From the NCBI GenBank assembly GCA_028382965.1, contig JAOEUK010000015.1:1-40217 (forward strand): a DNA stretch of 40,217 nt, given 5' to 3'. Positions 8,475 to 36,930 of the stretch are shown here, in pieces; position 1 is the first letter of the stretch, and each line of letters starts with the position of its first letter. The notes under the pieces were generated by a model. It saw only the letters and a list, made by a program, of their open reading frames with translations, searched no databases and was not told the DNA's origin. Both the position numbers and the translations under genes were made by a program. The stretch comes from Candidatus Puniceispirillum sp. GTDB lineage: Bacteria > Pseudomonadota > Alphaproteobacteria > Puniceispirillales > Puniceispirillaceae.

Positions 8475-9113
8475 GTGCCAAATCCAATGCAAGATGATAG
8501 GACACAGCTCATACTCGCCTCGTCATCTCCGCGGCGGTTAGAGTTGCTTAGTCAAATTCAAATTGTGCCAGAACAAATTATTCCAGCTGATATTGATGAA
8601 ACGCCAAAAAAAAATGAGCTACCAGCTAAGTATGCTGTAAGAATGGCTTTTGAAAAAGTGGCCTATGTTTCTAAGGAAATGGGTTGTGGTTCGAGCTCAG
8701 CATTTGTGTTAGCTGGAGACACAGTGGCTGCAGTGGGACGGCGTATTTTGCCCAAAGCTGAAACTGATCAGCAAGCGTGGGATTGTCTTGCAGCCATATC
8801 TGGACGACGCCACCGAGTTTACGGTGGCATCGCGCTTCAATGCCCAGATGGAAGTGTTAGAACCCGTGTTGTTCAAAGTTACGTTTGTTTTCGTCGACTT
8901 TCTAAAGTAGATATCGACTATTATATAGGCACTAAAGATTGGCAGGGAAAAGCGGGTGGTTATGCCATTCAAGGCATTGCTTCGCGTTTCATACGTGCTA
9001 TTGGAGGCAGTTATTCTAATATTGTTGGTCTTAGCCTATATGATGTTTCAGTGATGCTTGCTTCTGCTGGTTTCAACTTGGAAATTATACAGCAAAGCTC
9101 AGACATTGTATGA
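8475..9113 (+). CDS. maf: Maf/YhdE-type nucleotide pyrophosphatase
   Basis: The protein hydrolyses non-canonical or modified nucleoside triphosphates and has been linked to septum control. It has the Maf signature at the N-terminus, ILASSSPRRLELL, followed by the DIDET motif, the GDTVAAVGRRILPKAETDQQA segment and GKAGGYAIQG. The start is uncertain: GTG 8475 has AGGAG 10 nt upstream and is used here (212 aa), while ATG 8454 would add seven residues with a poorer ribosome binding site. The stop overlaps the start of the ribonuclease gene by 4 nt, indicating translational coupling. Confidence 0.92.
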   Translation: MPNPMQDDRTQLILASSSPRRLELLSQIQIVPEQIIPADIDETPKKNELPAKYAVRMAFEKVAYVSKEMGCGSSSAFVLAGDTVAAVGRRILPKAETDQQAWDCLAAISGRRHRVYGGIALQCPDGSVRTRVVQSYVCFRRLSKVDIDYYIGTKDWQGKAGGYAIQGIASRFIRAIGGSYSNIVGLSLYDVSVMLASAGFNLEIIQQSSDIV

Positions 9114-10393
9114 GTGGCATCGTTAAGTTATTTTATGAAATTTCACCTGGTCAGAATAGGCTAGGATTCTTTGATAAAAATGATTCAGTGCTTGAGGTTT
9201 GGTTTGATGCTGTGCATAGCCCAAATCTCATAGGTATGGTTTATCAAGCCCGTATTAACCGTGTCTTTCTATCTCAAAATCGTGCAACAGCAAGCCTTAT
9301 TGATGGTGAGATTGTTAGCTTAAGGCTTCACAGACGGGATATGGATTTTGTGATTTCTGGGACGGTTCTGCCCGTAACTATTACCGCCGCGCCCCGTCAT
9401 GGGAAACCTTGGCAGGGGGTAATAGGAGCAAGGCTTGCGAATAAGGAAATGGTTTTGCTTGTTGATTTGCCAGACAGTTCAGGTGTCGTTCAGCTATCGA
9501 GCCAAATTGATGGGGATCAGAGGAAAAACTTGTTGGCACGATTAAAAGCTGAAGTGGAGCCGGTGCTTCCAAGTGGCTTTGGAATAATTTTACGCCGTGG
9601 TGGCAGCAATTTATCGGATTTTGGCACAATGGCAACGGTGCTTGTTGAAACGTGGCAAGCTGGTAAAAAAACTCTAGATGCTGGTCATCTAGGTACTATT
9701 TTTGATGCAGGTGATTTGCTAGCACGAGCAAGGCGCTTGGCAAGCAATGTCACTGTGATTAATGATCCATCTATTGGAACTGAAATGTCTGCCATTCTTG
9801 ATGAGACGATTAATTCTGCGTGTGTTCCAAAATTGCGGCTTGCTTGTGGTGGGCATTTATGGTTTGAACAAACTCACGCAATCTGGTCGATTGACCTTGA
9901 CAGCAATCTAGCAACGGGTGTGGACAGACTATATGATGAAGCTGCCATTGAAATTGCTAAACAAATTAGATTGCGTGCTATGTCAGGGCCTGTCTTAGTT
10001 GATGTGCCAAGGTGTTCATCAAGGCGAGCTAATCGGTTCCGTATTAATCTTCAAAAAGCGCTTGGTGATGACCCGCGCCAACCTGAATATCTTGGCATAA
10101 CCCGCGGTGGTTTGATCGAATTGCGGGTGCCACATGGTCAAATGGCATTGGGTACGGTAATGCGTGATCAACCAGCACAAGCATCGCTCGCGGGTTTACG
10201 GCTTGTTGAACGACATAGGGGTTTTGATGAGGTAACTTTGGCAGTAAGTCCTGCAATGGCTGAATGGTTAAACGGCCCGGGTCGGCAGGCGCTTGGTCAA
10301 CTAGATAGGCCATTGAAACTTGTTGTTTGTCTGGAATCTGATGAGCATCAGGAAGCATACATTATTGGTAAAAATGAAAATCATGACTTCTAA
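9110..10393 (+). CDS. Ribonuclease E/G family protein
   Basis: The 427-residue protein starts at ATG 9110 inside the end of maf. The N-terminus holds an S1-like region (GMVYQARINRVFLSQNRATASLIDG), followed by the RNase E/G catalytic part with GFGIILRRGG, the ALLEDET-like TEMSAILDETINSA stretch and GGHLWFEQTHAIWSIDLDSN, which carries one metal-binding Asp. It is shorter and more diverged than E. coli RNase G and lacks an RNase E scaffold tail. Such short versions are usual between maf and yacG in alphaproteobacteria and are named RNase E/G-like. Endonucleolytic RNA processing is the likely role. Confidence 0.85.
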   Translation: MSGIVKLFYEISPGQNRLGFFDKNDSVLEVWFDAVHSPNLIGMVYQARINRVFLSQNRATASLIDGEIVSLRLHRRDMDFVISGTVLPVTITAAPRHGKPWQGVIGARLANKEMVLLVDLPDSSGVVQLSSQIDGDQRKNLLARLKAEVEPVLPSGFGIILRRGGSNLSDFGTMATVLVETWQAGKKTLDAGHLGTIFDAGDLLARARRLASNVTVINDPSIGTEMSAILDETINSACVPKLRLACGGHLWFEQTHAIWSIDLDSNLATGVDRLYDEAAIEIAKQIRLRAMSGPVLVDVPRCSSRRANRFRINLQKALGDDPRQPEYLGITRGGLIELRVPHGQMALGTVMRDQPAQASLAGLRLVERHRGFDEVTLAVSPAMAEWLNGPGRQALGQLDRPLKLVVCLESDEHQEAYIIGKNENHDF

Positions 10394-10628
10394 AACAGAA
10401 AAAAAGCATCCAATATCAGGTAAACCAGTAATGAAATGCCCAACCTGTGGAGCTCCAGCTGATCCAAAAGCGCATCCGTTTTGCTCGTCACGCTGTTCAG
10501 ATGTAGATCTTGGCCAATGGTTTCAAGGTAAATATGCCATCCCAGCTATGGAAGCTGCTGATGACACAATTGTTGAAGCCTTGAACCAAGCCCGTGATAC
10601 TCTAATGGAAGAGGGCGACAACAGTTAG
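10374..10628 (+). CDS. yacG: DNA gyrase inhibitor YacG (zinc finger)
   Basis: The start is taken at ATG 10374, overlapping the ribonuclease stop; ATG 10383 is an alternative. The product has 84 residues with the four-cysteine zinc site CPTC...FCSSRC (C22, C25, C37, C41) followed by DLGQWFQGKYAIP, the diagnostic YacG sequence. YacG binds GyrB and inhibits gyrase. This is the last gene of the murA-yacG unit, before tRNA-Phe. Confidence 0.94.
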   Translation: MKIMTSKTEKKHPISGKPVMKCPTCGAPADPKAHPFCSSRCSDVDLGQWFQGKYAIPAMEAADDTIVEALNQARDTLMEEGDNS

Positions 10629-10789
10629 TCTAGTAAGGCCATTTTAGCCAAAGATTATTTTTTGGTTGAATTCAGGCTGGACAGTGGCCGGCCAAGCCGG
10701 TATATCCCTTAAACTGTAAGCAGAGATTTGTAATTAACTTTTTTTGCTATCCTTAATGGATAAAGTAGAAAATCGTTTCTTTACTCCTC

Positions 10790-10865
<76 letters not shown>

Positions 10866-10923
10866 CTTTTCTAAAATAAAAACAATTAATACAATAGCTT
10901 ATTTGATTTATTGTGGTTTCTAC

Positions 10924-10940
10924 CCACCTTTTTATCCACC
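10924..10940 (+). promoter_or_regulatory. Putative integrase arm-binding site, left
   Basis: The 17-nt sequence CCACCTTTTTATCCACC, itself two CCACC units, occurs here 54 nt inside attL and again, exactly and in the same orientation, at 33092-33108 just upstream of the integrase start. Paired motifs flanking both ends of an integrative element are expected for integrase arm or excisionase sites. Confidence 0.65.
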
Positions 10941-10989
10941 TCAAAAATAATCTTTTTTTATTTTTATTTTCTCGTGGCAGACTGCATTT

Positions 10990-11610
10990 ATGTCACATAG
11001 CCATGAGAATGCTGATAAAGCACGCCAATTCATAAAAGACTATATCAGGACTGGGTCTGATGTCATTGAAGAATGGCTCAGTGCTGATGGGTCAGTCGAT
11101 GCTGTAGGTGAGGAGCTTATTCTCCTTTCTCTTGATCGCTATCGCTCGAATGGTAAATATGACCTTCCCGGCCTAGCTGGCCCTTACGTTGAAGGCCTTT
11201 TTCGTTACGCGCCCGGTGGACATTCTGCTGCGATAAAAACAATCTCCAGCATCATCGAGGCGGGCGAGCAGGTACCAACGGCGCTTTTCAGCATTCATCT
11301 TGATCTAATTCGGGGCATTCCGCTTGATAGTGCCAAAAAATCTAGTGTTAAGAAACGTGGACCAAAGTCGCGAATAGGAAGACGTGATGCTTTGCTTTCA
11401 ATTTTACTCGCCGTTATCAAAGCCCAGTTTAACATTTCACTTTATAGAAATGATGCTTTTTCCGGCGATAGTGATACGCCCCCTTACGCAATAGAAATTA
11501 TCAAAGAAGAACTCCTACCCATGATGCCAGACCTTGAAGATGTTTCCATAAAAAGTCTGGAAGACGGTGTGCGCCGCTTCGAGGCTGCGCATCAGTGGTT
11601 TGTCATCTGA
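10990..11610 (+). CDS. Hypothetical protein at left end of island (206 aa)
   Basis: The start ATG 10990 has only a weak ribosome binding site. The product is soluble, with no signal or membrane segment. Visible parts are an acidic N-terminal helical region, a basic linker (KKSSVKKRGPKSRIGRRD near residue 115) that could touch DNA, and a helical C-terminal part ending in a conserved-looking aromatic tail. No family is recognised. As the first gene inside attL, upstream of the AlpA regulator, it may be an island-specific replication or regulatory factor (inference). Confidence 0.65.
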   Translation: MSHSHENADKARQFIKDYIRTGSDVIEEWLSADGSVDAVGEELILLSLDRYRSNGKYDLPGLAGPYVEGLFRYAPGGHSAAIKTISSIIEAGEQVPTALFSIHLDLIRGIPLDSAKKSSVKKRGPKSRIGRRDALLSILLAVIKAQFNISLYRNDAFSGDSDTPPYAIEIIKEELLPMMPDLEDVSIKSLEDGVRRFEAAHQWFVI

Positions 11611-11621
11611 CCAACGATAAT

Positions 11622-11643
11622 GGCTAATTAAGCCTAATTAGCC
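11622..11643. repeat. Perfect 9-bp inverted repeat before the AlpA gene
   Basis: GGCTAATTA, loop AGCC, TAATTAGCC. It lies 12 nt after the stop of the first island gene and 65 nt before alpA. No T-run follows, so an operator for a small regulator such as AlpA is as likely as a terminator. Confidence 0.5.
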
Positions 11644-11707
11644 GGTATTACATTTTCAGAAAAAAATTGAACACTTGTGCGATCACAATTGAACGCAGGA
11701 GGTTTTA

Positions 11708-11899
11708 ATGAAGATTTTACGTCTTCCCGATGTTTCTGAAATGACAGGTCTTAGCCGGTCATCAATTTTTCGACTTATAGAGACTGGGCAATTTCCAGAA
11801 TCTGTCAGATTAACCCAACGGGCAATTGGCTGGCATGCTGAAGATGTCCGCTCGTGGATAGAAAAGCGGCCTCACGCGCAGAAAAAAGGTGAGGATTGA
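11708..11899 (+). CDS. AlpA-family helix-turn-helix regulator/excisionase
   Basis: The ATG follows AGGAGG with 6-nt spacing. The 63-residue protein is a typical AlpA/MerR-like winged helix: ILRLPDVSEMTGLSRSSIFRLIETGQFPESV..., then a strand with GWHAEDVRSWIEKR. AlpA of cryptic prophages activates integrase expression, and relatives act as excisionases. Here it opens a run of three tightly packed genes, alpA, primase and repA. It may bind the arm-like repeats at the ends or the inverted repeat at 11622 (inference). Confidence 0.85.
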   Translation: MKILRLPDVSEMTGLSRSSIFRLIETGQFPESVRLTQRAIGWHAEDVRSWIEKRPHAQKKGED

Positions 11900-11900
11900 A

Positions 11901-12530
11901 ATGTTGATCAAGGACCAACCAACTGATTTTGATAATGCCGCTCTATTCATAGAGAAAATTTCATCTAACTGGGTGTGTCTCGAAGGTACTTTCTTTATGG
12001 AAATGCGTGCGCTTGGGAAAACTGCAAAGTCCTTTCGCTTTGACCCTTTTAATGAGGATGAAGTAAAGGCCATTTTGTTAAAAGCTTCTGACTTGAATAA
12101 GAGCGGATCAAATATTCATGTGACTATAAACCCTGCAAAGGATAACGGGCTGAGTTCAGGGTCTACCGCGGTTCGTGACAGTGACATTATCGCAAGTAGC
12201 AGCGCCTTTGTTGATGCTGACGATTTTGGTATAGCAGATAATCTGCGTGAAAACGCTTTAAGGGAAGCGGACTTTGCGGTTGTTACCGGAACCATTCCCT
12301 ATTTTCGAGCTCATTTTTACTGGTTATTTGAAAAGCCTGAAAAGGATCTGGCAAAATGGCGCCATCTCCAGGAGCTGTTGGCAAATCATCATCAGACTGA
12401 CAGAGCGGTTTCTAACCCATCGCGGATCATGAGATTGCCCGGATTTGCCACTCATCCAAATAAGTCGAAACTATTGAGGGGCTATGTATCCGAGATTGCC
12501 AGGCTTATCGAGTTTGGCGGTGCAACATGA
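11901..12530 (+). CDS. RepB-like primase domain protein
   Basis: The ATG at 11901, just after the alpA stop, has AGGTGAGG upstream; a GTG at 11889 overlaps alpA. The 209-residue product resembles RepB-type/primpol primases of plasmids and islands: a SGSNIHVTINP strand, an acidic FVDADDF motif (likely metal-binding aspartates), AHFYWLF, and a basic SNPSRIMRLPGFATHPNK motif typical of this group. It presumably makes primers at the element's origin together with the next gene, which it overlaps by 4 nt (ATGA). Confidence 0.75.
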   Translation: MLIKDQPTDFDNAALFIEKISSNWVCLEGTFFMEMRALGKTAKSFRFDPFNEDEVKAILLKASDLNKSGSNIHVTINPAKDNGLSSGSTAVRDSDIIASSSAFVDADDFGIADNLRENALREADFAVVTGTIPYFRAHFYWLFEKPEKDLAKWRHLQELLANHHQTDRAVSNPSRIMRLPGFATHPNKSKLLRGYVSEIARLIEFGGAT

Positions 12531-13960
12531 TTAGGTTCGAAGATTTACTTGAGAGCTATGAGAATGCTCCGCGTTTTGGAAAGAGATTTATAGATGTTTT
12601 GTTAAACAGACATCGAGCGGATGAAATTAGGGCAGTGCGTTTAAATATGCCCGATGCGATGGAGCGCCTCCGGAATGATGATCAATGGCATAATAACGCA
12701 TTAAGGGTCATTGCCGGGTTTGTGAGATCTGGGCAAACTGATCAGCAAATCCTCGATAAAGCGCCTGATTTTAAGCTGGATGGCTATTCATTGAAGCAGA
12801 CCGAAGAAGACATAAAAGTCATGATAGATGGGGCTCGCAAGAAGGGGTTTGATCAATCACATGTCGATCGTAATAGCGACGCTCCCGATATTCCCTTGAA
12901 CAAACAGCCACTGTTGAAAAAATTTTGTGATATCGAGCTCAAGCCTTTGGAGTATCTTGTTGAAGGCCTCATTCCCTTAAAGAGCCTTGGTATGATCTTT
13001 GGCGATCCAGGATGTGGAAAAACTTTCCTGAGCATCGATATAGGGATGTCAATTGCGACAGGATCTGACTTTCACGGAAAGCCGGTTTCTGGTGGCAAAG
13101 TGATCATGGTTGTAGGGGAAGGCTACCACGGTGTGGTCCAGAGAGCCTTTGCCTGGTGTGCCCAAAATAACGTTCCTCGTGAAGATGTTGATTTGTATAT
13201 TTCCAGAACTGCAGTAGATATTGCCGATAAGAATGCACGCGCGATTTTAACCGCCGAGATTGAAAAAAATCTTGGGCTCGGCGAACATTTACAACTTCTC
13301 ATAATTGATACCGTTGCCCGAAATTTTGGTGGAAATGACGAAAACTCTACAAAGGATATGAGCTCATTTGTAACAGCTGTTGATCGCATAGCTGCGCAGT
13401 TTGGTTGCGCAACACTTTTGGTTCACCACACTGGTCATGCGTCCAAAGGACGGGCAAGAGGTGCGATAGCCCTGACGGGCGCAGTTGATATTGAATACCT
13501 GATCACAAACACCAATTCGTTCATTACGATGGAATGTACCAAAGCAAAGGATTTTGAAGAGCCAAAGGGTTTAAGGTTTGTGCTTCAGCCAGTTGAAGTT
13601 GAGGCAAATGGAGAGATTATCAAAAGTGCAGTTCTGATACTACGTGATGCTGAATTCGAAAGGGTGAGAATTACGGCAGCAGATGCACGGAACATGGACA
13701 ATTTTTTTGCTGCGCATCGTGCTATCCATGGCGAATCTGTGCCCGGGGAGCCGCGATTATTGAGTATGAATGAATGGCGGGAGTATTATCTGCGACACAG
13801 TACAGCTGATAACCGGGATACCAAATCAAGAGCATTTTTGCGTTGCCGGAATGCTTTGGTCAACAAGGGCCTTCTGACCGTGGAAGATGATATCTATACC
13901 TGGACACCCCAGACACCCGGACAAGTCCCGGACAAAGTCCATTTGTTCCCGGATATCTAG
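12527..13960 (+). CDS. RepA-like AAA/RecA-fold ATPase (replicative helicase)
   Basis: The 477-residue protein overlaps the primase gene. An N-terminal helical part of about 125 residues precedes a RecA-fold ATPase with Walker A GDPGCGKT (159-166), Walker B LLIIDTVARNFGG (D261) and a VHHTGHASKGRARGAIA motif, as in the RSF1010 RepA/AAA_25 family. The C-terminus (about 395-477) is a winged-helix-like tail. The pair primase plus RepA ATPase suggests that the excised island can replicate on its own (inference). Confidence 0.82.
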   Translation: MIRFEDLLESYENAPRFGKRFIDVLLNRHRADEIRAVRLNMPDAMERLRNDDQWHNNALRVIAGFVRSGQTDQQILDKAPDFKLDGYSLKQTEEDIKVMIDGARKKGFDQSHVDRNSDAPDIPLNKQPLLKKFCDIELKPLEYLVEGLIPLKSLGMIFGDPGCGKTFLSIDIGMSIATGSDFHGKPVSGGKVIMVVGEGYHGVVQRAFAWCAQNNVPREDVDLYISRTAVDIADKNARAILTAEIEKNLGLGEHLQLLIIDTVARNFGGNDENSTKDMSSFVTAVDRIAAQFGCATLLVHHTGHASKGRARGAIALTGAVDIEYLITNTNSFITMECTKAKDFEEPKGLRFVLQPVEVEANGEIIKSAVLILRDAEFERVRITAADARNMDNFFAAHRAIHGESVPGEPRLLSMNEWREYYLRHSTADNRDTKSRAFLRCRNALVNKGLLTVEDDIYTWTPQTPGQVPDKVHLFPDI

Positions 13961-13975
13961 CGGACAGACAAAGAC

Positions 13976-13993
13976 ACGCGCCTATAGGCGCGT
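13976..13993. repeat. Perfect 18-bp palindrome after repA
   Basis: ACGCGCCTATAGGCGCGT lies 16 nt after the repA stop. It is GC-rich, perfectly symmetrical and without a T-run. It could be a weak terminator hairpin or a protein-binding palindrome near a replication origin. Confidence 0.5.
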
Positions 13994-14055
13994 CTGGTGT
14001 CCGGTATGCATTTCCTGTTTTATAACTATATTGCACTATCATTTATGACCAGGCT

Positions 14056-14083
14056 GCATAGCCACTAGCGTTGGTGGTTATGC
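14056..14083. repeat. 10-bp stem-loop in the repA-cargo spacer
   Basis: GCATAGCCAC and GTGGTTATGC face each other across an 8-nt loop; nine pairs are Watson-Crick and one is G-U. The adjacent sequence is AT-rich rather than a clean T-run. The function is unclear: terminator, or part of an origin or RNA structure. Confidence 0.4.
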
Positions 14084-14238
14084 CTGCTCGAATAACAATT
14101 ATTTTCTCCCACAATAATATCACCATCTGGATCGTCTTCTTACTGAAGGGAGATTGTGAACTCTCTTGGAAACTGGATTTTTGTAATTTGGCTTTGCTTC
14201 TTGAATAAGGGGATATCGCCAAATTTGGGTAACGGATT

Positions 14239-14355
14239 ATGGGGGATGGCATTGAAATTTTCTTTTTATGGCTGGTAGCTGAGCTCTTTATTTGGACGTT
14301 CTTGATTTACCGATTGTGGAGATTGATATCGACATTTTTGTCATCTGGCTGGTAG
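14239..14355 (+). CDS. Tiny membrane peptide (38 aa), copy 1
   Basis: This short frame starts with ATG at 14239 and contains one strongly hydrophobic span, IEIFFLWLVAELFIWTFLI, followed by a basic Tyr/Arg/Trp segment, so it is a single-span membrane peptide if translated. A second frame 77 nt downstream encodes a near-copy of the span. The ribosome binding site is weak. Conservation of the WLVAE..IWT core between the two copies in different frames is the main reason to think it is translated. Confidence 0.4.
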   Translation: MGDGIEIFFLWLVAELFIWTFLIYRLWRLISTFLSSGW

Positions 14356-14384
14356 CTGAAATTCTAATCTGGACGCTAATACTT
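14251..14384 (+). repeat. Imperfect tandem duplication, 57-nt units 77 nt apart
   Basis: Unit 1 is 14251-14307 and unit 2 is 14328-14384. By hand count 39 of 57 positions agree, including the 14-nt block TGGCTGGTAGCTGA. Each unit encodes the same peptide core in its own frame. Confidence 0.6.
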
Positions 14385-14387
14385 TGA
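14316..14387 (+). CDS. Tiny membrane peptide (23 aa), copy 2
   Basis: This frame starts at GTG 14316 and ends at TGA 14385-14387. The product is an acidic N-terminus followed by the span FVIWLVAEILIWTLIL, which matches the core of the peptide at 14239. The two frames overlap but differ in phase. No good ribosome binding site is seen, and translation is uncertain. Confidence 0.3.
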   Translation: MEIDIDIFVIWLVAEILIWTLIL

Positions 14388-14441
14388 AAAATTTCTGCGC
14401 TGAACCTAGACGCTTAACCGCTAAATAAAGGACACAATAGG

Positions 14442-14648
14442 TTGAAAAAACTATTTGAAAAACTGGACTTCATTAGAGTGCCACTCCAGCTCGCAGCAGG
14501 TGTTTATATGGCTGTTATGCTGATCTTTGGAACTGCAGCTGCCCTCGTCCATTTTGATGATGATCTCGATCAATGCGGAGAACTAGAGATGTCAAACCAT
14601 CCAAAGCCGGCAGTTATTTTTGAAATGTCTGGGATATGGAACAGCTGA
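14442..14648 (+). CDS. Small single-span membrane protein (68 aa)
   Basis: The frame begins at TTG 14442, preceded by AAAGGA at a longish distance. The N-terminus is basic (KKLFEKLDF), followed by a hydrophobic span at about residues 14-37 and a short acidic, soluble tail with DDDLDQCGE. The family is unknown. Its stop codon is immediately followed by the ATG of the next small frame, and the protease gene follows 16 nt before that frame's end, so the three are probably co-transcribed. Confidence 0.5.
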   Translation: MKKLFEKLDFIRVPLQLAAGVYMAVMLIFGTAAALVHFDDDLDQCGELEMSNHPKPAVIFEMSGIWNS

Positions 14649-14777
14649 ATGAGGACGCTGTGTCTTGCTATCATTTACAGTTTGCCGCTAGACCCAATTT
14701 TAGTTGGATTAATAGCTGGAGTGGCCACCGCCATTTATACCTATTGGTCCGATATTGATTCTGAAGAACCTGATTGA
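14649..14777 (+). CDS. Very small membrane protein (42 aa)
   Basis: The ATG touches the preceding stop (TGA then ATG). The product is almost entirely a hydrophobic segment, with DPILVGLIAGVATAIYTYW and an acidic tail SDIDSEEPD. It ends 14 nt before the protease start. No family is recognised. The head-to-tail packing with the neighbours supports translation by coupling. Confidence 0.45.
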   Translation: MRTLCLAIIYSLPLDPILVGLIAGVATAIYTYWSDIDSEEPD

Positions 14778-14791
14778 AAGAGGTGTTTGAA

Positions 14792-16036
14792 GTGAAAACA
14801 ATTCTACCACTTATTCTAATGGCTGCTTTTGCCACCAGCGTTGACGCATCTCCCATAGACGATGCATCAACATATTCTGTCAGAGTCAAATCGACAGTGC
14901 GTTATGCGTTCGCAGAAGATGTTGCGGGAACAAGCCATGGTGCGGGCTTTCTTATAAATAAAAACAAAGGGTGGATTCTGACTAACGCACATGTGTCAGG
15001 GCATGGCACAGGCGAGGTTGAAGTGTCATTCAAAGGAAATGATTATTTTGAGGCCAAGCTGGTTTATGTGGATCCCGAACTTGATTTAGCAGTGATCCGC
15101 GTCAAAGACCAAAATATCCCGCGCACAGCCAAAGAAGCGGAGCTTGATTGTGGTGATCGGCCACTTAATGGTGTGCCAGTTGCTGCGTTTGGCCATCCCC
15201 ATAGTCTGACTTACTCAGCCAGCAGAGGCATTATATCAAAGGTACGTTATTATCATGGTGTTGACTGGATACAAACCGATGCTGCAATCAATCCAGGAAA
15301 TTCAGGTGGTCCACTAATTGATCTTGGGACTGGTAAAGTTGTTGGCATCAATGCCATGGCGATCAAGGACACTGAGGGTCTTAACTTTGCGGTGCCAGCA
15401 AAGCCTGTTTGTAAAGTCCTAAACCTATTGATGGCTGACAAGGATCCGTCGCCACCGGAACTACCGATCAGTTTTGCTGTAAACACAGAGTCTGAAGAGT
15501 ACCTGATCTTAGGAGCTGCCGCGCAAAGCGAGTTACCACAAGGGTTTCTGCTTGGAGACAGATTGGCAAAAGTTGACAGCCACCATATCGAAACACCAAC
15601 CGCATTGAAGACATATCTCCGAGGAAAAAAAGGGGATGTAAATGTTCTGCTTAAAAGAGGAAATAAAGAGGTAAAGGCTTCTCTCACTTTTGCGCCTGAG
15701 CCTTTGATCCTGGATCGACAATATGTAAAGGCTGATGGTGCATTGATTGCAGAAGATCCCTACCCGGAGCGCCGTGGCCTGGAGGGATTTTATCATGTCC
15801 AGTCGGTTCGTGAGGGGTCTTATGCGGAAAGATCAGGCTGGATTCAATATCGCTTAATCATGTCAATAGATGGCACACGTCCGACCTCATTATCTCATAT
15901 TAACGATCTCCTTTCTGGCGAAAACAAAAAGGTCATTATTTTTCGAGGATGGTCAGCTCAGGATAACAAGATGCACGACTATCATGAAGTAAGTTACTGG
16001 CCCTATAAAGTTGAACTGAAAAGGGCTGGAGAATGA
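14792..16036 (+). CDS. Secreted trypsin-like serine protease with PDZ domains (S1C/HtrA-like)
   Basis: GTG at 14792, 8 nt after GAAAGAGG, is preferred over the TTG at 14774; it gives 414 residues. A signal peptide (about residues 1-19, cleavage near VDA-SP) sends it to the periplasm. The catalytic triad is visible: H67 in LTNAHVSG, D98 in DLAVIRV, S171 in NPGNSGGPL. Two PDZ-like regions follow (about 235-310 and 330-405). HtrA/Deg proteases degrade or refold envelope proteins under stress. As an island gene sitting with tiny membrane proteins, it may act on the envelope on behalf of the element (inference). The following gene overlaps its stop by 4 nt. Confidence 0.85.
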   Translation: MKTILPLILMAAFATSVDASPIDDASTYSVRVKSTVRYAFAEDVAGTSHGAGFLINKNKGWILTNAHVSGHGTGEVEVSFKGNDYFEAKLVYVDPELDLAVIRVKDQNIPRTAKEAELDCGDRPLNGVPVAAFGHPHSLTYSASRGIISKVRYYHGVDWIQTDAAINPGNSGGPLIDLGTGKVVGINAMAIKDTEGLNFAVPAKPVCKVLNLLMADKDPSPPELPISFAVNTESEEYLILGAAAQSELPQGFLLGDRLAKVDSHHIETPTALKTYLRGKKGDVNVLLKRGNKEVKASLTFAPEPLILDRQYVKADGALIAEDPYPERRGLEGFYHVQSVREGSYAERSGWIQYRLIMSIDGTRPTSLSHINDLLSGENKKVIIFRGWSAQDNKMHDYHEVSYWPYKVELKRAGE

Positions 16037-16476
16037 CCACATCCAATTTTTACAAACACCTGGAGCTGGAGGAAAGCCGACAGTTGATCCATGTCCTATT
16101 AACATTTGAAGATGAGGTAAGAGATGCGTGGAGTAAAAAAGAGTGCCCGCTAGGTGATGGGAGGATTGACTTGGAGATTGATGTAGATAGCTTTTTTCAG
16201 GAACTCAAATATTTTCAGTCTGAGGACAAAAACTATTTTCTTTACATGAACGATGTGGCTGGTTTGGTATTACATAAATGGGCTGTAGAAAAATTGAATA
16301 GTAAAGGATTTATAACAATTCCTCACATGAGCATTGCAATACATTCAGACCCAGAATATGAGCCCAATAAATTGGACGAGAATATCATCGCGGGGTTGAG
16401 GTTGATTAACAACAACATGGGTTTGTTTGGGCCTTGGCATGCAATAACAAGTACAAATAACTTTGGAAGAAAATAG
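16033..16476 (+). CDS. Hypothetical protein co-transcribed with the protease (147 aa)
   Basis: The start overlaps the protease stop (ATGA), indicating translational coupling. The product is soluble and acidic, without signal peptide, with an N-terminal helical region and a hydrophobic patch near residues 70-85. The coupling implies a shared role, but the protease is exported and this protein appears cytoplasmic, so direct contact is not obvious. No family recognised. Confidence 0.6.
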   Translation: MTTSNFYKHLELEESRQLIHVLLTFEDEVRDAWSKKECPLGDGRIDLEIDVDSFFQELKYFQSEDKNYFLYMNDVAGLVLHKWAVEKLNSKGFITIPHMSIAIHSDPEYEPNKLDENIIAGLRLINNNMGLFGPWHAITSTNNFGRK

Positions 16477-16532
16477 CTACAGGAAAATACTTGGTCTCAT
16501 GATGTTCAATTGAAAAAGGTGAGAAGAATAAG

Positions 16533-16793
16533 ATGAAAAACTTAATCACACTCAGTACATGCGTAGTTCTCTTCTGCTTTGGGCTGTGGCCAATAGCATT
16601 CATCTTGGTATACACAGTGTCCTACAAAGAGTTGATGAAAGAGAAGCAGCGACTTGATGAGGAACCTATTGTTTATCCTACGTTTGAACAAAAGCAGCTA
16701 ATTGCTATTTTAGCAGCACGTGAATCTGGTCAGTTTGAAGAAGCTGCTTTTTTGGAACGTAATTTTCAGCAGGAGTGGCAATGCCTTTATTAG
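16533..16793 (+). CDS. Small membrane protein (86 aa)
   Basis: The ATG is preceded by AAGGTGAGAAG. Residues about 4-30 form a hydrophobic span (or uncleaved signal anchor), followed by a charged, helical tail with KELMKEKQRLDEE. The last residues overlap the antisense end of the peroxiredoxin relic, so the C-terminus may have been changed by the recombination that brought the relic in. The family is unknown. It closes the protease module. Confidence 0.55.
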   Translation: MKNLITLSTCVVLFCFGLWPIAFILVYTVSYKELMKEKQRLDEEPIVYPTFEQKQLIAILAARESGQFEEAAFLERNFQQEWQCLY

Positions 16794-17070
16794 ATGATAA
16801 TTGCAATGCATCTAACGCCCTCAACACTTCTGCAAAGTTTCTCCCAACTGTCATGGGGTATGTCATTGAAAGTTTTAACTTCTTGTCTAGCCCTATTATG
16901 AACACAGACCTAACTGTTGCGGTGTCATTCGGGGTTCTTCCGTCTGGCAAATATGCTTCACTTGGAAGCATGTCAAAAGCTTTGGAAACAACAAGGTTTG
17001 TGTCTCCAATAATCGGAATCTCACTTTATGGTAGACAAATATGTGCCTGTTGACATGAGCAAGCAGGTGT
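16762..17070 (-). pseudogene. 1-Cys peroxiredoxin (Prx6/AhpC-like) C-terminal relic
   Basis: Read leftward, the frame entered near 17020 encodes PIIGDTNLVVSKAFDMLPSE, then YLPDGRTPNDTATVRSVFII, then a KLKLSMTYPMTVGRNF..EVLRALDALQLS stretch and GIATPAE. This is the C-terminal half of a 1-Cys peroxiredoxin. Upstream of PIIGD the frame is broken: a TAA appears, and a one-base shift near 17015-17020 would restore a preceding ...VRF. The N-terminal domain with the peroxidatic cysteine is missing. The formal stop of the frame is at 16705, but similarity fades near 16762. The rightward frame on the opposite strand here is a shadow. Confidence 0.75.
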
Positions 17071-17119
17071 ATGAATTCAGGCTATTGCTTAAGAAACATA
17101 TATAAAAAAATCAAGATGC

Positions 17120-18148
17120 TTATTTAGACCTATAAAGCCGCGACATCAGAGGGACACCAATCCCCAGAACAAGACTAATACGTGCAATATGCAGAAGGCT
17201 GATAAACGCTACTTCCAACCCAAGTGACAGCGCGACAATAGTCATCTCCTGAACACCCCCAGGCGCCATACCGAGCAACAGAATGCTAAGTTCATAGCCA
17301 ATTAGCTTACTTCCAAAAGCAGCAAATGCTAGCGCTAGGACAAGCGAGATTAACGACCAGATTATTCCAAAAAACAAATGTCTCGTTGTTTCACTTCCAT
17401 CGATATTTACAAATCGGGAGCCTACAGCAGCGCCCACCACAATTTGTATTATGATAACTAAAAGTAGGGGCGGTGCGCTATGACTCAGCCCACAAATATG
17501 TGCGATTGCACTTAATAGCAACGGACCTGTCAATGGCGCCGCTGGAAATCGCAGGCGGCGCCCAAGCAGAAGACCTGAAACACCACAAATAATTAAGATG
17601 ATGGCCTCACTCCATTCTACTGAGAACCATTGTGGTGACATCACATTGCGCTGTGTTTCAACGTCTAAAAAAAACCAAAACGCAAGTGGGATTGCGAAAA
17701 CGACCACCACAATTCTTGCAAGATGCGACAAAATTACTGTTTGCATATTTGCGCCAAGTTCTGGGCCGACCATCATCAGCTCGCTAATTCCTGCTGGAAC
17801 CGCGGCACAAAATGCTGTGGCCGGATCTTGTTTTGATACCTTTTGGAAAAACAGGAACCCCAGATATGACGTTAAAGTGACAAACACAGTCATCAACAGT
17901 AACGCCAACAGCCAATCACTAGCTTGATTAATAATTTCTAGGCTGAAACGGCTGCCAATCAAAACACCAAGCACAGGTGAGCACACCGCCCTCGCCTGCT
18001 TCGGCACATAGGTATGGCCATGGGTAACTGCACCAATTAGGGTAAAAGTCAAAGCACCAAGCATCCAAGGCAGTGGCGTATTTAATCTGAAGAAACAATA
18101 TCCACCCATCGCTGCGACAACAAATGTCGTCAATAATTTAAAGCCCAC
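17120..18148 (-). CDS. AbrB-family integral membrane protein (putative transporter)
   Basis: The 342-residue protein starts at GTG 18148 and has about nine or ten hydrophobic segments. The duplicated AbrB/PF05145 pattern is clear: PLPWMLGAL and AAVPAGISELMMVGPELGAN in the first half, and APLTGPLLLSA and MAPGGVQEMTIVA in the second. The family was once annotated as ammonia monooxygenase but is better regarded as transporter-like, and often sits next to carboxylate genes. It is the last gene of the leftward GntR unit, 82 nt after the MmgE/PrpD gene, and may be an additional import or export route for the same compound (inference). Confidence 0.85.
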   Translation of the reverse strand: MGFKLLTTFVVAAMGGYCFFRLNTPLPWMLGALTFTLIGAVTHGHTYVPKQARAVCSPVLGVLIGSRFSLEIINQASDWLLALLLMTVFVTLTSYLGFLFFQKVSKQDPATAFCAAVPAGISELMMVGPELGANMQTVILSHLARIVVVVFAIPLAFWFFLDVETQRNVMSPQWFSVEWSEAIILIICGVSGLLLGRRLRFPAAPLTGPLLLSAIAHICGLSHSAPPLLLVIIIQIVVGAAVGSRFVNIDGSETTRHLFFGIIWSLISLVLALAFAAFGSKLIGYELSILLLGMAPGGVQEMTIVALSLGLEVAFISLLHIARISLVLGIGVPLMSRLYRSK

Positions 18149-18230
18149 TATTTTGTTCCCAGCCCATGCACAGTTTAAAAGATTCTAGTGTCTTTGATGG
18201 GCTATTTTTAAATGGTCAAAATCTCAGGAA

Positions 18231-19634
18231 CTATTTCGAAGCTGCAATAAGGCCCACAAGTTTTCCCGCGTTATCAAGGTCCTCAAGATTAAGCATGCTC
18301 TCAACCACCGCTTTTTGGGCGCGTGAAGTCATTAATCCATCGGTTAACTTTACAAATTTTCTAACAATATCTGCTTCACTGCCAAATGAATGTTCGCTGC
18401 CAATTGGTGCCTCACGTGTTTCGGTTTCTAACGCTCCGTTCTTATAGTGAACCTCAACTGTTACCTTGTGCCTAAATTTTGCTCCGAGCGCAGTTATTTT
18501 GGGATCGTGTAACACCTCTACCCGACGTGACAAATCAATCCGCGCCTTATTTTCAACGCAGTCTGGTTTGAATTGCTTTACAAAAACATCACCTTCCAAA
18601 AGCAGCGTCGCAACACAAAATGGCAAGTTCAGCTGTGCAGACGTTAAGCCTTGTGGTTGGTAAGGCCAGCCAACATGATCCGCCGTAACTTGCGAACCAT
18701 AAATGACAATTTTATCAAAGTCATCAACACCGAAAGGGCGGCGGGACTGAATATGTTTGATTGCATCAAGTGATGTATGATTGCTGCCAACGCAAGAGTA
18801 GAATTTTAGCGCTACCCGCATTACCTCAAAATCAATACCAAGGCCTTCAGTTAATGCGGCTAAATTATAGCGATCATGTGACCTTGAGAAAGTTGAACAA
18901 AAGCCACCATAGGGGGCCTCAAAAACATCCTGAATACCAGTAAATCCCTGCTCCGCTAGCAAGGCGCCATAAAGGCCGCTTTGGGCAGAACGACCCGCAT
19001 GCATGCGTTTCACCATAGAGCCATATTGTGCCGCCATAAGACCCGCTGCCTGAGTGCCAGCAATACCAAGTGCGTTGACAGTTTGGTCAATCGATAAATT
19101 CAGTACTCTGGCAGCACCCGCTGCCGCAGAAAAAACACCGAGCGTAGCACCCGAATGCCAGCCCTGGCCAATATGCTCTTGCCCCATACAAAGTCCCACC
19201 CTGGGGCCAACTTCATATCCTGCAACCGCAGCAGTTAGAAAAGCCTTGCCGTCAATATCAGGACGCCCTTCGACAATTGCAAACAAAGGTGGCAGGGTAA
19301 CTGCACCAACATGTAAGACACCGTTACGGTGCACGTCGTCAAGTTCGAACCCTTGAATTTGCGTCCCATTAACCAAAGCTGCGTGTGGTGCCGATAATTT
19401 TTGATCACTTCCAAACAAGCTACAATCATTACTGCTATCTATTGCCCCAAGTGTTTTCTTGAGAATATTTGTCCACGGTAAATTAGCCCCATAGATGCCG
19501 CACCCAATGGAATCTAACATGAGCAATTTAATGCGCTCAATAACAGCCGCTGGGATATCTTCAAAAGTAAGGCCCGAAACAAATTCGGCAACACCTAAGC
19601 TATGGGGATTTTTAATGTTTGCATCTTTGGCCAT
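18231..19634 (-). CDS. MmgE/PrpD family protein A
   Basis: ATG 19634, 9 nt after GAGGAGAG, is chosen; the longer frame to 19715 overlaps the lyase gene. The 467-residue product has the MmgE/PrpD all-helical domain with GFELDDVHRNGVLH, GWHSGATLGVFSAAAGAARVL and MVKRMHAGRSAQSGL motifs, then the mixed C-terminal domain. Family members include 2-methylcitrate dehydratase, cis-aconitate decarboxylase and iminodisuccinate epimerase, so the exact reaction cannot be read from sequence. It follows a PrpB-like lyase by 16 nt, which favours a methylcitrate- or methylisocitrate-like substrate (inference). Confidence 0.9.
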   Translation of the reverse strand: MAKDANIKNPHSLGVAEFVSGLTFEDIPAAVIERIKLLMLDSIGCGIYGANLPWTNILKKTLGAIDSSNDCSLFGSDQKLSAPHAALVNGTQIQGFELDDVHRNGVLHVGAVTLPPLFAIVEGRPDIDGKAFLTAAVAGYEVGPRVGLCMGQEHIGQGWHSGATLGVFSAAAGAARVLNLSIDQTVNALGIAGTQAAGLMAAQYGSMVKRMHAGRSAQSGLYGALLAEQGFTGIQDVFEAPYGGFCSTFSRSHDRYNLAALTEGLGIDFEVMRVALKFYSCVGSNHTSLDAIKHIQSRRPFGVDDFDKIVIYGSQVTADHVGWPYQPQGLTSAQLNLPFCVATLLLEGDVFVKQFKPDCVENKARIDLSRRVEVLHDPKITALGAKFRHKVTVEVHYKNGALETETREAPIGSEHSFGSEADIVRKFVKLTDGLMTSRAQKAVVESMLNLEDLDNAGKLVGLIAASK

Positions 19635-19650
19635 CCTTGAAATCTCTCCT

Positions 19651-20565
19651 CTATTCTGTGTTAACGATTGGAATGCGGCTTTGAACGATTGATTGATCCA
19701 TCTCTTCAAACTCAAAATATCTTATTATTTTATAGAGCTCTTCACGATTCATCATGCCCTCAAGGGAGCCACGTGCATGACCGCTGGCATTTAAGGACTG
19801 ATAAAACCCCTGCATTGACTTCGCGGCAATGCGCAATGCCGACACCGGATAAATCACCAGCTCGTAGCCTATTTTTCCCCATTCAATAAGGTCAGTTTGG
19901 GGGGTTTGGCCAAACTCAGTCATGTTTGCCAGCAATGGGGCACGAACTTCTTTACGAACTCGCACCATGTCACTCCGACTTCGCAAAGCCTCGACAAAAA
20001 TAAAATCAGCCCCGGCCGCAGCGTATCTATTAGCACGCTCGATAGCTTCATCTAATGAAACCTGGCCAGCATCAGTCCGTGCACAAATCATTATGTTGTT
20101 CGCGGCACGCTTTGCCGCGGCGATTTTTAGGCACATGTCCTCGGCTGCTAACAGCCGTTTATCATTAAGGTGGCCACATTTTTTAGGCAGAATCTGGTCT
20201 TCAATTTGAATTGCGGCAACGCCGGCATCCTCAAATTCACGCACCAGCCGCATCACGTTAAGCGCTTCTCCATAGCCCGTATCGCAATCCACAATTAATG
20301 GCAATGAAGATGCCCTAATAATTATCCGAGCGGCGCGCAAAACTTCTTCCATCGTTATTAACCCTAAGTCGGGCAAAGCCATCGATGCGGACAATGCAGC
20401 GCCCGACAGATACAGCGCCTGAAACCCTGCTTCTTTCGCCAATGCGGCAGAAATACCATCGTATACGCCAACGACTGCAGTGGTGTTTCCTTGCTTCAAT
20501 ATTTGATGCAAAATTTTTGCAAGTTGTTTATCACAAACACTGGAACTGAAAAGTGTGTCTGCCAT
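19651..20565 (-). CDS. PrpB-like methylisocitrate lyase (ICL/PEPM superfamily)
   Basis: The second of two adjacent ATGs (20565) has better spacing from AAAGGAGG. The product has 304 residues, the PrpB size. In the numbering that counts both ATG codons, the metal-binding motif DCDTGYG is at 94-100 and the catalytic loop KKCGH at 129-133 with C131 as general acid; NMTEFGQTP is also typical of PrpB. Such enzymes cleave 2-methylisocitrate into pyruvate and succinate. Relatives cleave dimethylmalate or related acids, so the substrate may be an analogue. No methylcitrate synthase is nearby. It is the first enzyme gene downstream of the GntR gene. Confidence 0.9.
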   Translation of the reverse strand: MADTLFSSSVCDKQLAKILHQILKQGNTTAVVGVYDGISAALAKEAGFQALYLSGAALSASMALPDLGLITMEEVLRAARIIIRASSLPLIVDCDTGYGEALNVMRLVREFEDAGVAAIQIEDQILPKKCGHLNDKRLLAAEDMCLKIAAAKRAANNIMICARTDAGQVSLDEAIERANRYAAAGADFIFVEALRSRSDMVRVRKEVRAPLLANMTEFGQTPQTDLIEWGKIGYELVIYPVSALRIAAKSMQGFYQSLNASGHARGSLEGMMNREELYKIIRYFEFEEMDQSIVQSRIPIVNTE

Positions 20566-31924: not shown

Positions 31925-33085
31925 CTAGCTCGAGATTAAAAATTGAGCCCATTTCTGCATATGGCCTCGTCGTTGCTCCAGATAATCAGTGCGATTATAT
32001 GCTCGCTCCACCTTAGTCCCTGTTTTATGAGCGATGATTACTTCAGCCACATCATTATTCGCATGTGCCTTTTCAGTCAGCCATGTGCGCAGAGTAGACC
32101 TAAACCCATGTGGCCTTGCGTCTAATCCGCGTCTTTCCATTACCCGTGCCATGGATGCATCACTGATGACACCGCGCCTTACCCCTGAAAACAGAAATCC
32201 ATCCCTGGACAGAGAGCTTGCCACTAGGATGATGCGGCTTGCTTCTTTGGAGAGAGGCACTCTGAAGTCCGGGGTTCTCTTGTGCGGTCCTTTCATGTTC
32301 TGGCCCGGTATTGTCCAGATGTCATTAATGATTTCTTCCAGATGCGCATGCCTTACCGGGTAGCTTCTAAGACCGGTCAGCATCACAAGCTTCAGCGCTA
32401 ATTGGGTAGGAGAATTCTCATCAAGTGATTGATAGAATTCTGGAGCTTGCTGCCAATTCATGAATGGAATGTGTTTTGGTGTATGCCGGGTTTTGCCAAG
32501 TAAAAGTTTTGCTTTTTCTGCCAGGCCCATATCTACATTGATTCCCAGAGCTGCCGCGTGCTTAACCACAATGTTTATCCGGTTGATTGCTTTGCGGGCC
32601 GTATCAGCTTTTGAATGCCAGATAGGCGCAAGGCAATCACGCACATCTTTTGGGCCTAACTCCTCGATCAGAATAGAGCCCAGCTTTGGGAGCACATGAA
32701 GCTCGAGCGGGGTAAACCACCGGCCATTTTTTCCGTCACCTTTTAGCTCGGCTTTTTTTGCCTCGAAAGCTTCCCTGGCCAGGCGCCCAAACTCGTGGTC
32801 GGCTTGCAGTGCTTCACGCTTCAGGCGCGTGCGTTCACGAATAGGGTCAACACCGTCCAGGATTTTAAGCCGTGCAGCTTCCGCTAGTTGGCGCGCATGC
32901 TTCAGGCTCACCTTATGGAGTCCACCGAGCCCCATTTCACGTCGTCTGCCATGATTGCCAAAGCGTAAGAACCACTGGGCTCCACCATCTTTTCGTTTAT
33001 GCAACCACAATCCGGCACCATCACAATATTTGTCCGGTTTTGCGGTCTTGATGAAAGCTGCTGACAGACGATCACGGGGCGCCAT
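31925..33085 (-). CDS. P4-type tyrosine integrase
   Basis: The 386-residue protein has the DUF4102 arm-binding domain at residues about 5-90 (DKYCDGAGLWLHKRKDGGAQ, MGLGGLHKVSLKHAR), a SAM-like core-binding domain (about 105-200), and a catalytic domain with Arg in TGLRSYPVRHAHLEEI, the HGFRSTLRTW box and the tyrosine in ERAYNRTDYLEQRR. It is read inward from the right end, with attR about 150 nt behind its start and a putative arm site just upstream. Tyrosine integrases of this type target tRNA 3' ends, matching the tRNA-Phe repeat. It looks intact. Confidence 0.95.
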   Translation of the reverse strand: MAPRDRLSAAFIKTAKPDKYCDGAGLWLHKRKDGGAQWFLRFGNHGRRREMGLGGLHKVSLKHARQLAEAARLKILDGVDPIRERTRLKREALQADHEFGRLAREAFEAKKAELKGDGKNGRWFTPLELHVLPKLGSILIEELGPKDVRDCLAPIWHSKADTARKAINRINIVVKHAAALGINVDMGLAEKAKLLLGKTRHTPKHIPFMNWQQAPEFYQSLDENSPTQLALKLVMLTGLRSYPVRHAHLEEIINDIWTIPGQNMKGPHKRTPDFRVPLSKEASRIILVASSLSRDGFLFSGVRRGVISDASMARVMERRGLDARPHGFRSTLRTWLTEKAHANNDVAEVIIAHKTGTKVERAYNRTDYLEQRRGHMQKWAQFLISS

Positions 33086-33237: not shown

Positions 33238-33258
33238 CCGCCCCCGGGCACCACTTTT
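33238..33258 (+). repeat. Right attachment repeat (attR)
   Basis: Exact 21-nt copy of 10850-10870: the last 16 nt of tRNA-Phe plus CTTTT. No other part of a tRNA is present here, so this copy is the duplicated end, and the sequence to its right is the chromosome side before insertion. Confidence 0.92.
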
Positions 33259-34182: not shown

Positions 34183-35457
34183 ATGAACAAAGAAATTAAG
34201 ATTATCGACCACCCTTGCGGTAGTGGCAAAACGACAAGAATGATTGAAAACTTCAAGGAAGACCAAAAGTACCTCGTCATCCTACCTTTGTTGACTGAAG
34301 TAACCAGAGTCATCGAAGGGTCAAAGGACATTGAGTTTGTCCAGCCTGATGAAAATGATAATGAACATGGAACCAAGACCAGTAGCCTAGAGTCACATCT
34401 CTTGCTCGGCAGTAATATAGCGACCACCCATAAGATGTACGAAAGACTGGTTCCTATGGTCAAAGCTGGTCTCTTAGATGATTACGACATCATCATTGAT
34501 GAAGTTCCAAATGTTGTTAAATCAGTTACGTCTAAATCCAGAACCTCAATCCAAGAGTTTTACGTTGATGCTGGCTATATGGATGTGGATGCAGGAACAG
34601 GCTTAGTTAAACCAACTCATAAGTGGAGACAAAACCAAGACCAAGTCTCTGACACCTTAAGTCCAAAGATACTAAAGTACGCTGAAAGTGGGTGTCTTTA
34701 TCTTCAAGATGGAGAGATGTTCATTTGGGCTTTACCTCAGTGTATTTTATCTGCTGGCAATTCAGTAACAGTGATGACCTACAAGGCTGAAGGCTCAATG
34801 TTGTTGTCTTACCTTCGTAAACTTGGGTTGTCCTTCCGAGTGAGTAATGACAATCACCTTGAAGAAGACTTCAGAACCAAGGCAGCTGAGTTGATTACCA
34901 TCGAAGACATTGGAGCATTATCCAAGACTAACTTCAGTTACACCGGGCAGGTGCAGGGAATGTCGTTACCGTCTTATGCGACGAAGGTAGCCAGGTCACT
35001 TAAGAACCTAAAAGAAAGAAAGCTAGTTGGTGTCGACATCAACAACATCCTCATCACTTGTAAGAAAGACGCTTGGCTAAAAGCAAGCAACGACAACCAG
35101 CCAAAACCTGAGTCTGAAGAGAACGAAAAGACAAAGTCAAAGCCTGGTGTCTTCGCTAAAAACTCAAGACTTAAAGACGTCAACTGGATATCAAATACAA
35201 CCAGAGGAACCAATGACTTCATTCATTGCTCTCACCTTGTTTACCTCTATGACCAGAATATAAACACAGTGGTCGCAAGGTGGCTTGGGGACAGTTCAAG
35301 AGCCTTTAATGACGCCTATGCTCTGACTGAACTAGTCCAGTGGGTATGGCGGTCTAGAGTCAGAAGAGGGGAGCCAATTACTCTCTATCTTCCGTCACCA
35401 AGGATGAGGAGGTTATTCGAAGAGTGGTTGTATAATACCAAAACAACAAGAACCTGA
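34183..35457 (+). CDS. SF2 helicase-like ATPase, phage type
   Basis: The 424-residue protein starts with ATG 34183 behind AAGGAG. Walker A is HPCGSGKTTR (10-19), a TTHKMYERL motif follows near 81, and Walker B is IIIDEVP (103-109), giving a DEAD-like DExx box. A C-terminal QWVWRSRVRRGEPITLYLPS supplies arginines in the motif VI position. The middle (about 310-345) has a Lys/Glu/Ser-rich linker. Small SF2 enzymes of this layout occur in phages; the substrate is unknown. No other replication genes are beside it. Confidence 0.7.
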   Translation: MNKEIKIIDHPCGSGKTTRMIENFKEDQKYLVILPLLTEVTRVIEGSKDIEFVQPDENDNEHGTKTSSLESHLLLGSNIATTHKMYERLVPMVKAGLLDDYDIIIDEVPNVVKSVTSKSRTSIQEFYVDAGYMDVDAGTGLVKPTHKWRQNQDQVSDTLSPKILKYAESGCLYLQDGEMFIWALPQCILSAGNSVTVMTYKAEGSMLLSYLRKLGLSFRVSNDNHLEEDFRTKAAELITIEDIGALSKTNFSYTGQVQGMSLPSYATKVARSLKNLKERKLVGVDINNILITCKKDAWLKASNDNQPKPESEENEKTKSKPGVFAKNSRLKDVNWISNTTRGTNDFIHCSHLVYLYDQNINTVVARWLGDSSRAFNDAYALTELVQWVWRSRVRRGEPITLYLPSPRMRRLFEEWLYNTKTTRT

Positions 35458-36853: not shown

Positions 36854-36930
36854 GTGGTGGTCCCAGAGCGGCTCGAACGCCCAACCTTCTGTTTCGAAGA
36901 CAGATGCTCTATCCAATTGAGCTATGGGAC
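36854..36930 (-). tRNA. tRNA-Arg(TCG)
   Basis: On the minus strand this is a 77-nt tRNA with encoded CCA (36854-36856). Acceptor GGTCCCA pairs with TGGGACC, the D-arm is GCTC/GAGC, the anticodon stem TCTGT/ACAGA encloses CTTCGAA with anticodon TCG (arginine CGA codon), and the T-loop is TTCGAGC. The integrase relic to its right suggests that it once served as an integration site, but no second copy of its 3' end was seen. Confidence 0.95.

Follow-up and report, generated by a model that had tools for sequence, protein, structure and literature searches.

We examined two tandem repeat units, each with an open reading frame (ORF) for a tiny hydrophobic peptide, on contig C7 of Candidatus Puniceispirillum sp. 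(genome of 2.38 Mb in 39 contigs); the 40,217 bases of this contig are the analysed stretch, hereafter the window. The units lie head to tail at an offset of 77 nucleotides (nt), and their core agrees at 39 of 57 bases, that is, over 19 codons with 18 differences. A third short ORF (ORF0) and a gene for an AAA_25 helicase-type protein lie upstream, and two more genes for small hydrophobic proteins and one for an HtrA/DegP-type serine protease follow downstream (Table 1). A sequence-only reading of this DNA had described two similar hydrophobic peptides in different frames, 77 nt apart and with 39 of 57 bases equal, and the ORF list, the alignment and shuffled sequences bore out each of these points.

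The repeat units and their reading frames

Similarity between the units extends about 14 nt upstream of the aligned starts (ATG 14239 in unit 1, GTG 14316 in unit 2), and the highest-scoring 57-nt segment of the repeat, starting at 14225/14226, agrees at 40 of 57 bases. The repeat was the sole ungapped pair with at least 39 of 57 identical bases at offsets of 20–300 nt in the window, and 1000 dinucleotide shuffles of positions 13961–14791 yielded no pair at that level (0/1000 at ≥39; top pair 35/57; mean 29.6, standard deviation (sd) 1.2). For a base rate, we counted such pairs in other fetched loci (693,774 bases) and obtained 15 regions with at least 39 of 57 bases equal, some of them mutually overlapping; the 52 viral loci L016–L067 served as background for the repeat counts and for tblastn. 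Tandem repetition itself is therefore not rare, and it is the encoded content that matters.

Unit 2 is best read as a peptide of 23 amino acids (aa), since its GTG aligns exactly with the ATG of unit 1. An alternative ORF from TTG 14292 (14292–14387, 31 aa) is open, as had been claimed earlier, but the start did not stand, the homologous one being GTG 14316, 77 nt from ATG 14239. At the position aligned with the TGA of unit 2, unit 1 (MGDGIEIFFLWLVAELFIWTFLI...) has TAC, and its frame continues for 15 residues beyond this point, crossing unit 2 out of frame before it ends at TAG 14353–14355. Both peptides are shorter than 60 aa and hydrophobic, with one probable span each as read from the hydrophobic stretches; unit 1 has two Arg after its span, and unit 2 contains four acidic residues and none that is basic.

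Table 1. Features of the repeat locus and of the surrounding island (positions in the window)
Feature	Position	Strand	Remarks
attL	10850..10865	+	3' end of tRNA-Phe
AlpA	11708-11899		upstream of AAA_25 gene; replication module at the island's left end
Primase-like protein	11889-12530		upstream of AAA_25 gene; RepB_primase match below the Pfam cut-off
AAA_25 helicase-type protein	12527..13960	+	island replication module; family-library matches, genome search
ORF0	14156..14278	+	GTG start, 40 aa (MNSLGNWIFVIWLCFLNKG...FYGW); has the array's strongest ribosome-binding site; may be a degenerate third unit
Repeat unit 1	14225..14301	+	77-nt head-to-tail duplication; left edge approximate; alignment and shuffles
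Unit 1 peptide	14239..14355	+	ATG start, 38 aa, MGDGIEIFFLWLVAELFIWTFLIYRLWRLISTFLSSGW; last part crosses unit 2 out of frame
Repeat unit 2	14302..14387	+	taken through to its own stop codon; alignment and shuffles
Unit 2 peptide	14316..14387	+	GTG start, 23 aa, MEIDIDIFVIWLVAEILIWTLIL; alignment with unit 1
68-aa protein	14442..14648	+	TTG start; hydrophobic, probably a membrane protein; small family in other genomes of the genus
42-aa protein	14649..14777	+	hydrophobic, probably a membrane protein; start directly after the stop of the 68-aa gene
HtrA/DegP-type serine protease	14792..16036	+	GTG start; two PDZ domains; signal-peptide-like N-terminus by reading
147-aa protein	16033..16476	+	family not recognised; overlaps the protease stop by 4 nt
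Tyrosine integrase	31925-33085	-	right end of the island
attR	33238..33253	+	16-nt exact repeat of the tRNA-Phe 3' end; adjoins the integrase gene

Divergence of the units and the accounts of their origin

Over the 19 core codons, the differences between the units fall 7/0/11 at codon positions 1/2/3; 11 of the 19 residues are identical, and the others are hydrophobic or acidic residues in conservative exchanges (BLOSUM sum 71). We simulated this divergence by placing 18 substitutions at random on either unit under two transition biases (four settings, 20,000 draws each). Simulated BLOSUM means were 29–32 against the observed 71, and an open frame with an equal score arose in ≤0.0004 of draws in every setting; over the full 23 codons (24 differences) the fraction was 0.0005–0.003. 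Stops interrupt the remaining two forward frames in either unit, and the one of three reverse frames that is open in both scored 31, no better than the simulated forward-frame mean. Because the differences fall in this pattern and no other forward frame is open, the comparison suggests that both units have probably been kept as hydrophobic peptides. The duplicated tiny hydrophobic peptides described earlier thus stood, together with a substitution pattern of the coding type.

The same data bear on the possibility of a non-coding repeat, or of decaying sequence, in which T-rich DNA yields hydrophobic peptides as a by-product. GC content is 0.396 at 14000–14499, and among 500-nt steps from 9000 to 20000 only that at 16000–16499 (0.390) is lower; moreover, ribosome-binding sites are weak or absent, and no homologues were found in the searches described below. 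Set against this are the lack of any second-position difference among 18, the very small simulated fraction and a fold that is not unusual, and we consider this explanation improbable.

Several points weigh against two coding peptides. The coding frame had been chosen in the sequence-only reading, so the test was not blind, and its result is significant after a six-fold correction. An open frame alone is weak evidence, as the frame survives in 45–64% of simulated sequences. Among the conserved residues there is no significant helical periodicity (permutation P 0.19), and a helical face of conservation was rejected on this ground. The 23-aa product of unit 2 is very short, the ribosome-binding site is weak in unit 1 and lacking in unit 2 (energies below), and there are two copies only, with no homologue found in the genome and viral searches.

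From the repeat, the frames and the substitution pattern, which are observed, we infer the following order of events. A gene for a one-span membrane peptide would have been duplicated head to tail as a 77-nt segment with the start codon and without the stop codon; since 77 is not a multiple of 3, the copies would have been in different frames from the outset. With the stop codon outside the duplicated segment, copy 1 would have lost its stop and would read on through copy 2 in another frame; copy 2 would have retained a start of its own (GTG 14316) as well as the original stop (14385–14387). Divergence would then have reached about 32% of the core bases, with selection preserving both copies as hydrophobic helices in which the core I-IF--WLVAE--IWT is invariant. 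That a tiny membrane-peptide gene was duplicated in tandem out of frame into two genes, both copies being kept by selection, is to our judgement about an even chance.

The main rival is a single protein of about 49 aa with two spans, formed by an in-frame internal duplication of 26 codons and broken by a recent one-base frameshift, through either mutation or sequencing or assembly error. The offset of 77 falls a single base below 78, selection would be just as expected on both spans, and one start would suffice for such a protein, which would suit the missing ribosome-binding site of unit 2. However, a start-type codon has been kept at exactly the aligned place, the upstream similarity fits the duplication of a whole start region, and the lost stop of copy 1 is explained without any indel; we therefore regard a broken two-span protein as rather unlikely, if the most serious competitor. 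The duplication account leads, with the two-span protein next, ahead of the non-coding reading and of the readings as a type I toxin locus and as protease ligands that are weighed below.

The likeliest action under the duplication account would be that both peptides insert in the inner membrane as short helices, associating mutually or with neighbouring small proteins, and act on the envelope, either by a toxin-like membrane disturbance or by tuning of co-encoded proteins; a membrane-toxic action seems to us unlikely. Orphan small bacterial membrane proteins are similar in having fewer than 50 aa, one probable span and no family, but the present peptides differ from them in the head-to-tail duplication, in the different frames of the copies and in their protein-type divergence. 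If both peptides are made, the locus would clearly exemplify the out-of-frame duplication of a tiny gene whose two products have both been retained; it would show how arrays of small membrane peptides can originate in very little DNA, missed by ordinary gene finders, and would add an unclassified module of small membrane peptides and a protease to the cargo of marine alphaproteobacterial islands. If they are not translated, the locus is a warning against reading toxins into short T-rich frames.

We found no convincing relative of either peptide in searches of 61, 136 and 385 genomes or by pattern searches of viral and genome contigs; the collections searched may leave out records very near this genome. 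A protein search with unit 1 matched 9/61 genomes at E≤1, its own included, the other eight at E 0.027–0.51; the six of these eight that were inspected (L003–L007, L009) were judged chance, G022 (L008) and G042 falling outside the inspection. A profile of the two units matched 2/136 genomes of the order at E≤0.05 and 3/385 of the class at E≤0.01, each count including its own genome and the two sets sharing some genomes. Profile matches in G118, G414, G430 and on its own contig C23 were rejected, since each falls inside a longer ORF (in its frame or in a different one) or on the strand opposite such an ORF. The top match among them, DAIEVFYLWVVAELFM in G414 (L097), shares 69% of 16 aligned residues with unit 1; it lies opposite a 593-aa ORF and was therefore counted as chance. 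For unit 2, tblastn covered at least the matches with E up to 0.015. Patterns for the motif of the two peptides, a motif that had been proposed for searching short frames of related islands, gave one match in genome contigs, inside a 550-aa ORF of a Phycisphaerae bacterium, and none in viral contigs, which were searched twice. DNA from 13961 to 14791 had no match among phages, and a literature search found nothing on this locus. These searches yielded no homologous copy of the repeat with which to make the refuting comparison proposed in the sequence-only reading (islands that keep the DNA repeat with both frames broken).

Translation signals and likeness to type I toxins

We computed anti-Shine-Dalgarno duplex energies between the 21 bases upstream of each start and a 9-base 3' end of 16S rRNA. 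The strongest value was that of ORF0 (GTG 14156, -8.7 kcal/mol), followed by ATG 14239 (-3.7), TTG 14292 (-2.8) and GTG 14316 (+0.3); downstream, the 68-aa gene has -5.4, the 42-aa gene -4.4 and the protease gene -7.1 kcal/mol. The ORF0 peptide contains the stretch WIFVIWLCFL, which resembles unit 2. As a third unit, ORF0 made a weak candidate (a 15/17-nt match to unit 2; shuffle P 0.03 or 0.14, depending on scoring) and was rejected.

ORF0 overlaps unit 1 at 14239–14278 and unit 1 overlaps unit 2 at 14316–14355, by 40 nt each, so that units 1 and 2 each start no more than about 50 nt ahead of the stop of the previous ORF, with weak or no ribosome binding of their own. The overlaps are equal because of the 77-nt repeat, each unit having a start, and a stop for the incoming frame inside TGGCTGGTAGCTGA. 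This order of binding strength (ORF0 > unit 1 > unit 2), together with the equal overlaps, would allow a termination-reinitiation chain, a special form of the two-gene account in which ribosomes load at ORF0 and slip back about 40 nt twice to reach units 1 and 2. Against such a chain, ATG 14268 (a 4-codon ORF, 14268–14282) lies nearer the ORF0 stop than ATG 14239, so that the start of unit 1 is not the nearest usable one called for by a scanning model, and we rate the chain very improbable. The chain would be self-similar: each 77-nt unit would start its own membrane peptide and end the previous ORF inside the invariant TGGCTGGTAGCTGA block (WLVAE). Were the chain true, very similar membrane peptides would be made at a fixed ratio from one ribosome-binding site, and each duplication would extend it by one unit. 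A programmed -1 frameshift joining the units was also considered and dropped, since no canonical slippery heptamer was seen by eye in the overlaps.

A comparable layout occurs in the RNA phages fr and MS2, where the gene for a small hydrophobic peptide, the lysis protein, starts about 40 nt before the preceding stop; the downstream starts here also have weak or missing ribosome-binding sites. The coat/lysis overlap is given in a review as -38 nt in fr and -50 nt in MS2 (PMC12548453). The present array differs in that the upstream ORFs are also tiny, the equal overlaps follow from the repeat, ATG 14268 competes and coupling is a proposal only.

The peptides had been likened earlier to type I toxins, and this likeness held for general features alone. 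With the Ldr, Ibs and Zor toxins of E. coli they share tiny size, hydrophobicity, one probable span and repeated copies. They differ from these in that no antisense RNA was found, the leader fold is ordinary, unit 2 is acidic rather than basic, the copies, offset by only 77 nt, overlap in different frames, and the peptides have no family-library match. Basic C-terminal residues are described as usual in type I toxins, with exceptions such as IbsC (PMC8309996); unit 2 has no basic C-terminus. The unit peptides matched no family in Pfam, PHROGs or NCBIfam, libraries for which the presence of Ldr, Ibs and Zor models was not confirmed in each case, and Rfam gave no match at gathering level in the peptide region (two irrelevant ones at E 3.3), in agreement with the earlier statement that no family is recognised.

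We also considered whether the units form a true type I toxin-antitoxin locus, in which membrane-toxic peptides would be repressed by an antisense RNA read leftwards across 14239–14387. Between 13900 and 14850 there are 3 promoter-like sites against 2.4 expected (sd 1.3): two overlapping minus-strand alternatives at 14390–14361, which would point across the units and could start such an RNA, and a third on the plus strand at 14774. The sequence signal for a minus-strand promoter is thus no higher than chance, and the antisense RNA that the earlier reading proposed to look for gains no support from it. The sense RNA at 13990–14450 folds with z -1.04 (14/100 shuffles fold at least as well) and the antisense strand at 14140–14400 with z -0.09. 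These ordinary folds, the lack of a relevant Rfam match, the four acidic and no basic residues of unit 2, and a 77-nt spacing too short for a separate promoter and leader per copy all count against a type I locus, which we regard as improbable rather than excluded.

The island and the neighbouring genes

The last 16 bases of tRNA-Phe (10790–10865) are repeated exactly at attR. Because these att repeats are exact and an integrase gene adjoins, the peptides are probably cargo of a 22.4-kb integrative island at tRNA-Phe. Relatives of the AAA_25 protein were found in 4/136 genomes of the order at 1e-40, its own included. In the three other AAA_25 islands, a short ORF on the opposite strand comes next after the AAA_25 gene, not the peptides, and the peptides therefore look like cargo placed behind a replication module. 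Downstream of the AAA_25 gene, the window and the G021 island share a palindrome (GCCTATAGGC core), which was not found in the other two islands. The protease, AlpA and AAA_25 proteins also gave PADLOC matches, which look domain-level only and were set aside. The island also has a Sel1-repeat protein and, by ORF reading, tricarboxylate-transporter-like and MmgE-like genes.

Downstream of the repeat, the sequence-only reading had named two more tiny membrane proteins and a protease; the ORF list and Pfam bore this out, with 68-aa and 42-aa ORFs followed by an HtrA-type protease. Relatives of the 68-aa protein occur in five further genomes of the genus, and one more lies elsewhere in its own genome (6/136 genomes including its own, E 0.01), with 33–41% local identity and 25–31% over the whole alignment of five of the six, that of G014 being left out; no member of this family was found in viral contigs. 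Beside these relatives lies an ORF of about 450 aa (456 in G006, 450 on its own contig C12, 453 in G011; in pieces in G010), and a Sel1-repeat protein stands beside them in G006 (Pfam) and, by reading, in G013 and as a fragment in G014. The ~450-aa ORF (L083, L086, L088) recurs with relatives of 64–70 aa in apparent small integrated elements of the genus. Its EYDYSQLNPHM- and PVHDSF-like stretches look like palm motifs of family A DNA polymerases; the G011 copy (L088) had no Pfam match at E 0.01. For the 42-aa protein (E 0.01) and the 147-aa protein (E 0.001), no relatives were found in the other genomes of the order (1/136 each, their own genome only).

The protease matches Trypsin_2 and two PDZ domains, with scores below the curated cut-offs of named NCBIfam subfamilies; H67, D98 and S171 are invariant in the alignment and are taken, by reading, as the catalytic set. 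It was found in 4/61 genomes of the family at 1e-20, its own included, with 72–73% identity to a second copy on its own contig C25 and 49–54% to three further copies (two in G064, one in G020); the match in G018 is a 59-residue piece. The second copy (G000:C25:2578-3834, L089) lies near PhoU- and PhoB-like genes, by reading, at the end of a 4.2-kb contig. No tiny peptides were seen upstream of these four full-length copies, and tblastn of unit 1 in their loci gave nothing better than E 0.018. The protease therefore does not need the peptides, which look like a local addition. In viral contigs no protease was found with a single sequence query and one with an alignment (L100), where no tiny repeats were seen.

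HtrA-type PDZ domains bind hydrophobic C-termini. Those of the protease might recognise the free, hydrophobic ends of the tiny peptides (such as LIL), which would then serve it as ligands or as substrates. The shared co-directed gene array, the two PDZ domains and the His, Asp and Ser kept at the presumed catalytic positions would all suit such a role. The peptide-free copies elsewhere speak against it, as does orientation: acidic N-termini favour an N-out orientation, which would place the C-terminus on the wrong side of the membrane. We give this role very little credence.

Beyond the island, a 424-aa ORF (34183–35457) without a Pfam match at E 0.01 has, by reading, an N-terminal GSGKT-type nucleotide-binding motif. 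Beside tRNA-Arg (36855–36931, minus strand) lies another, short ORF for a tyrosine integrase (37167–38003, minus strand), possibly the remnant of a different element. A Methylobacterium-1 RNA (RF01712) is present at 39915–40015 (74.1 bits; cut-off 40).
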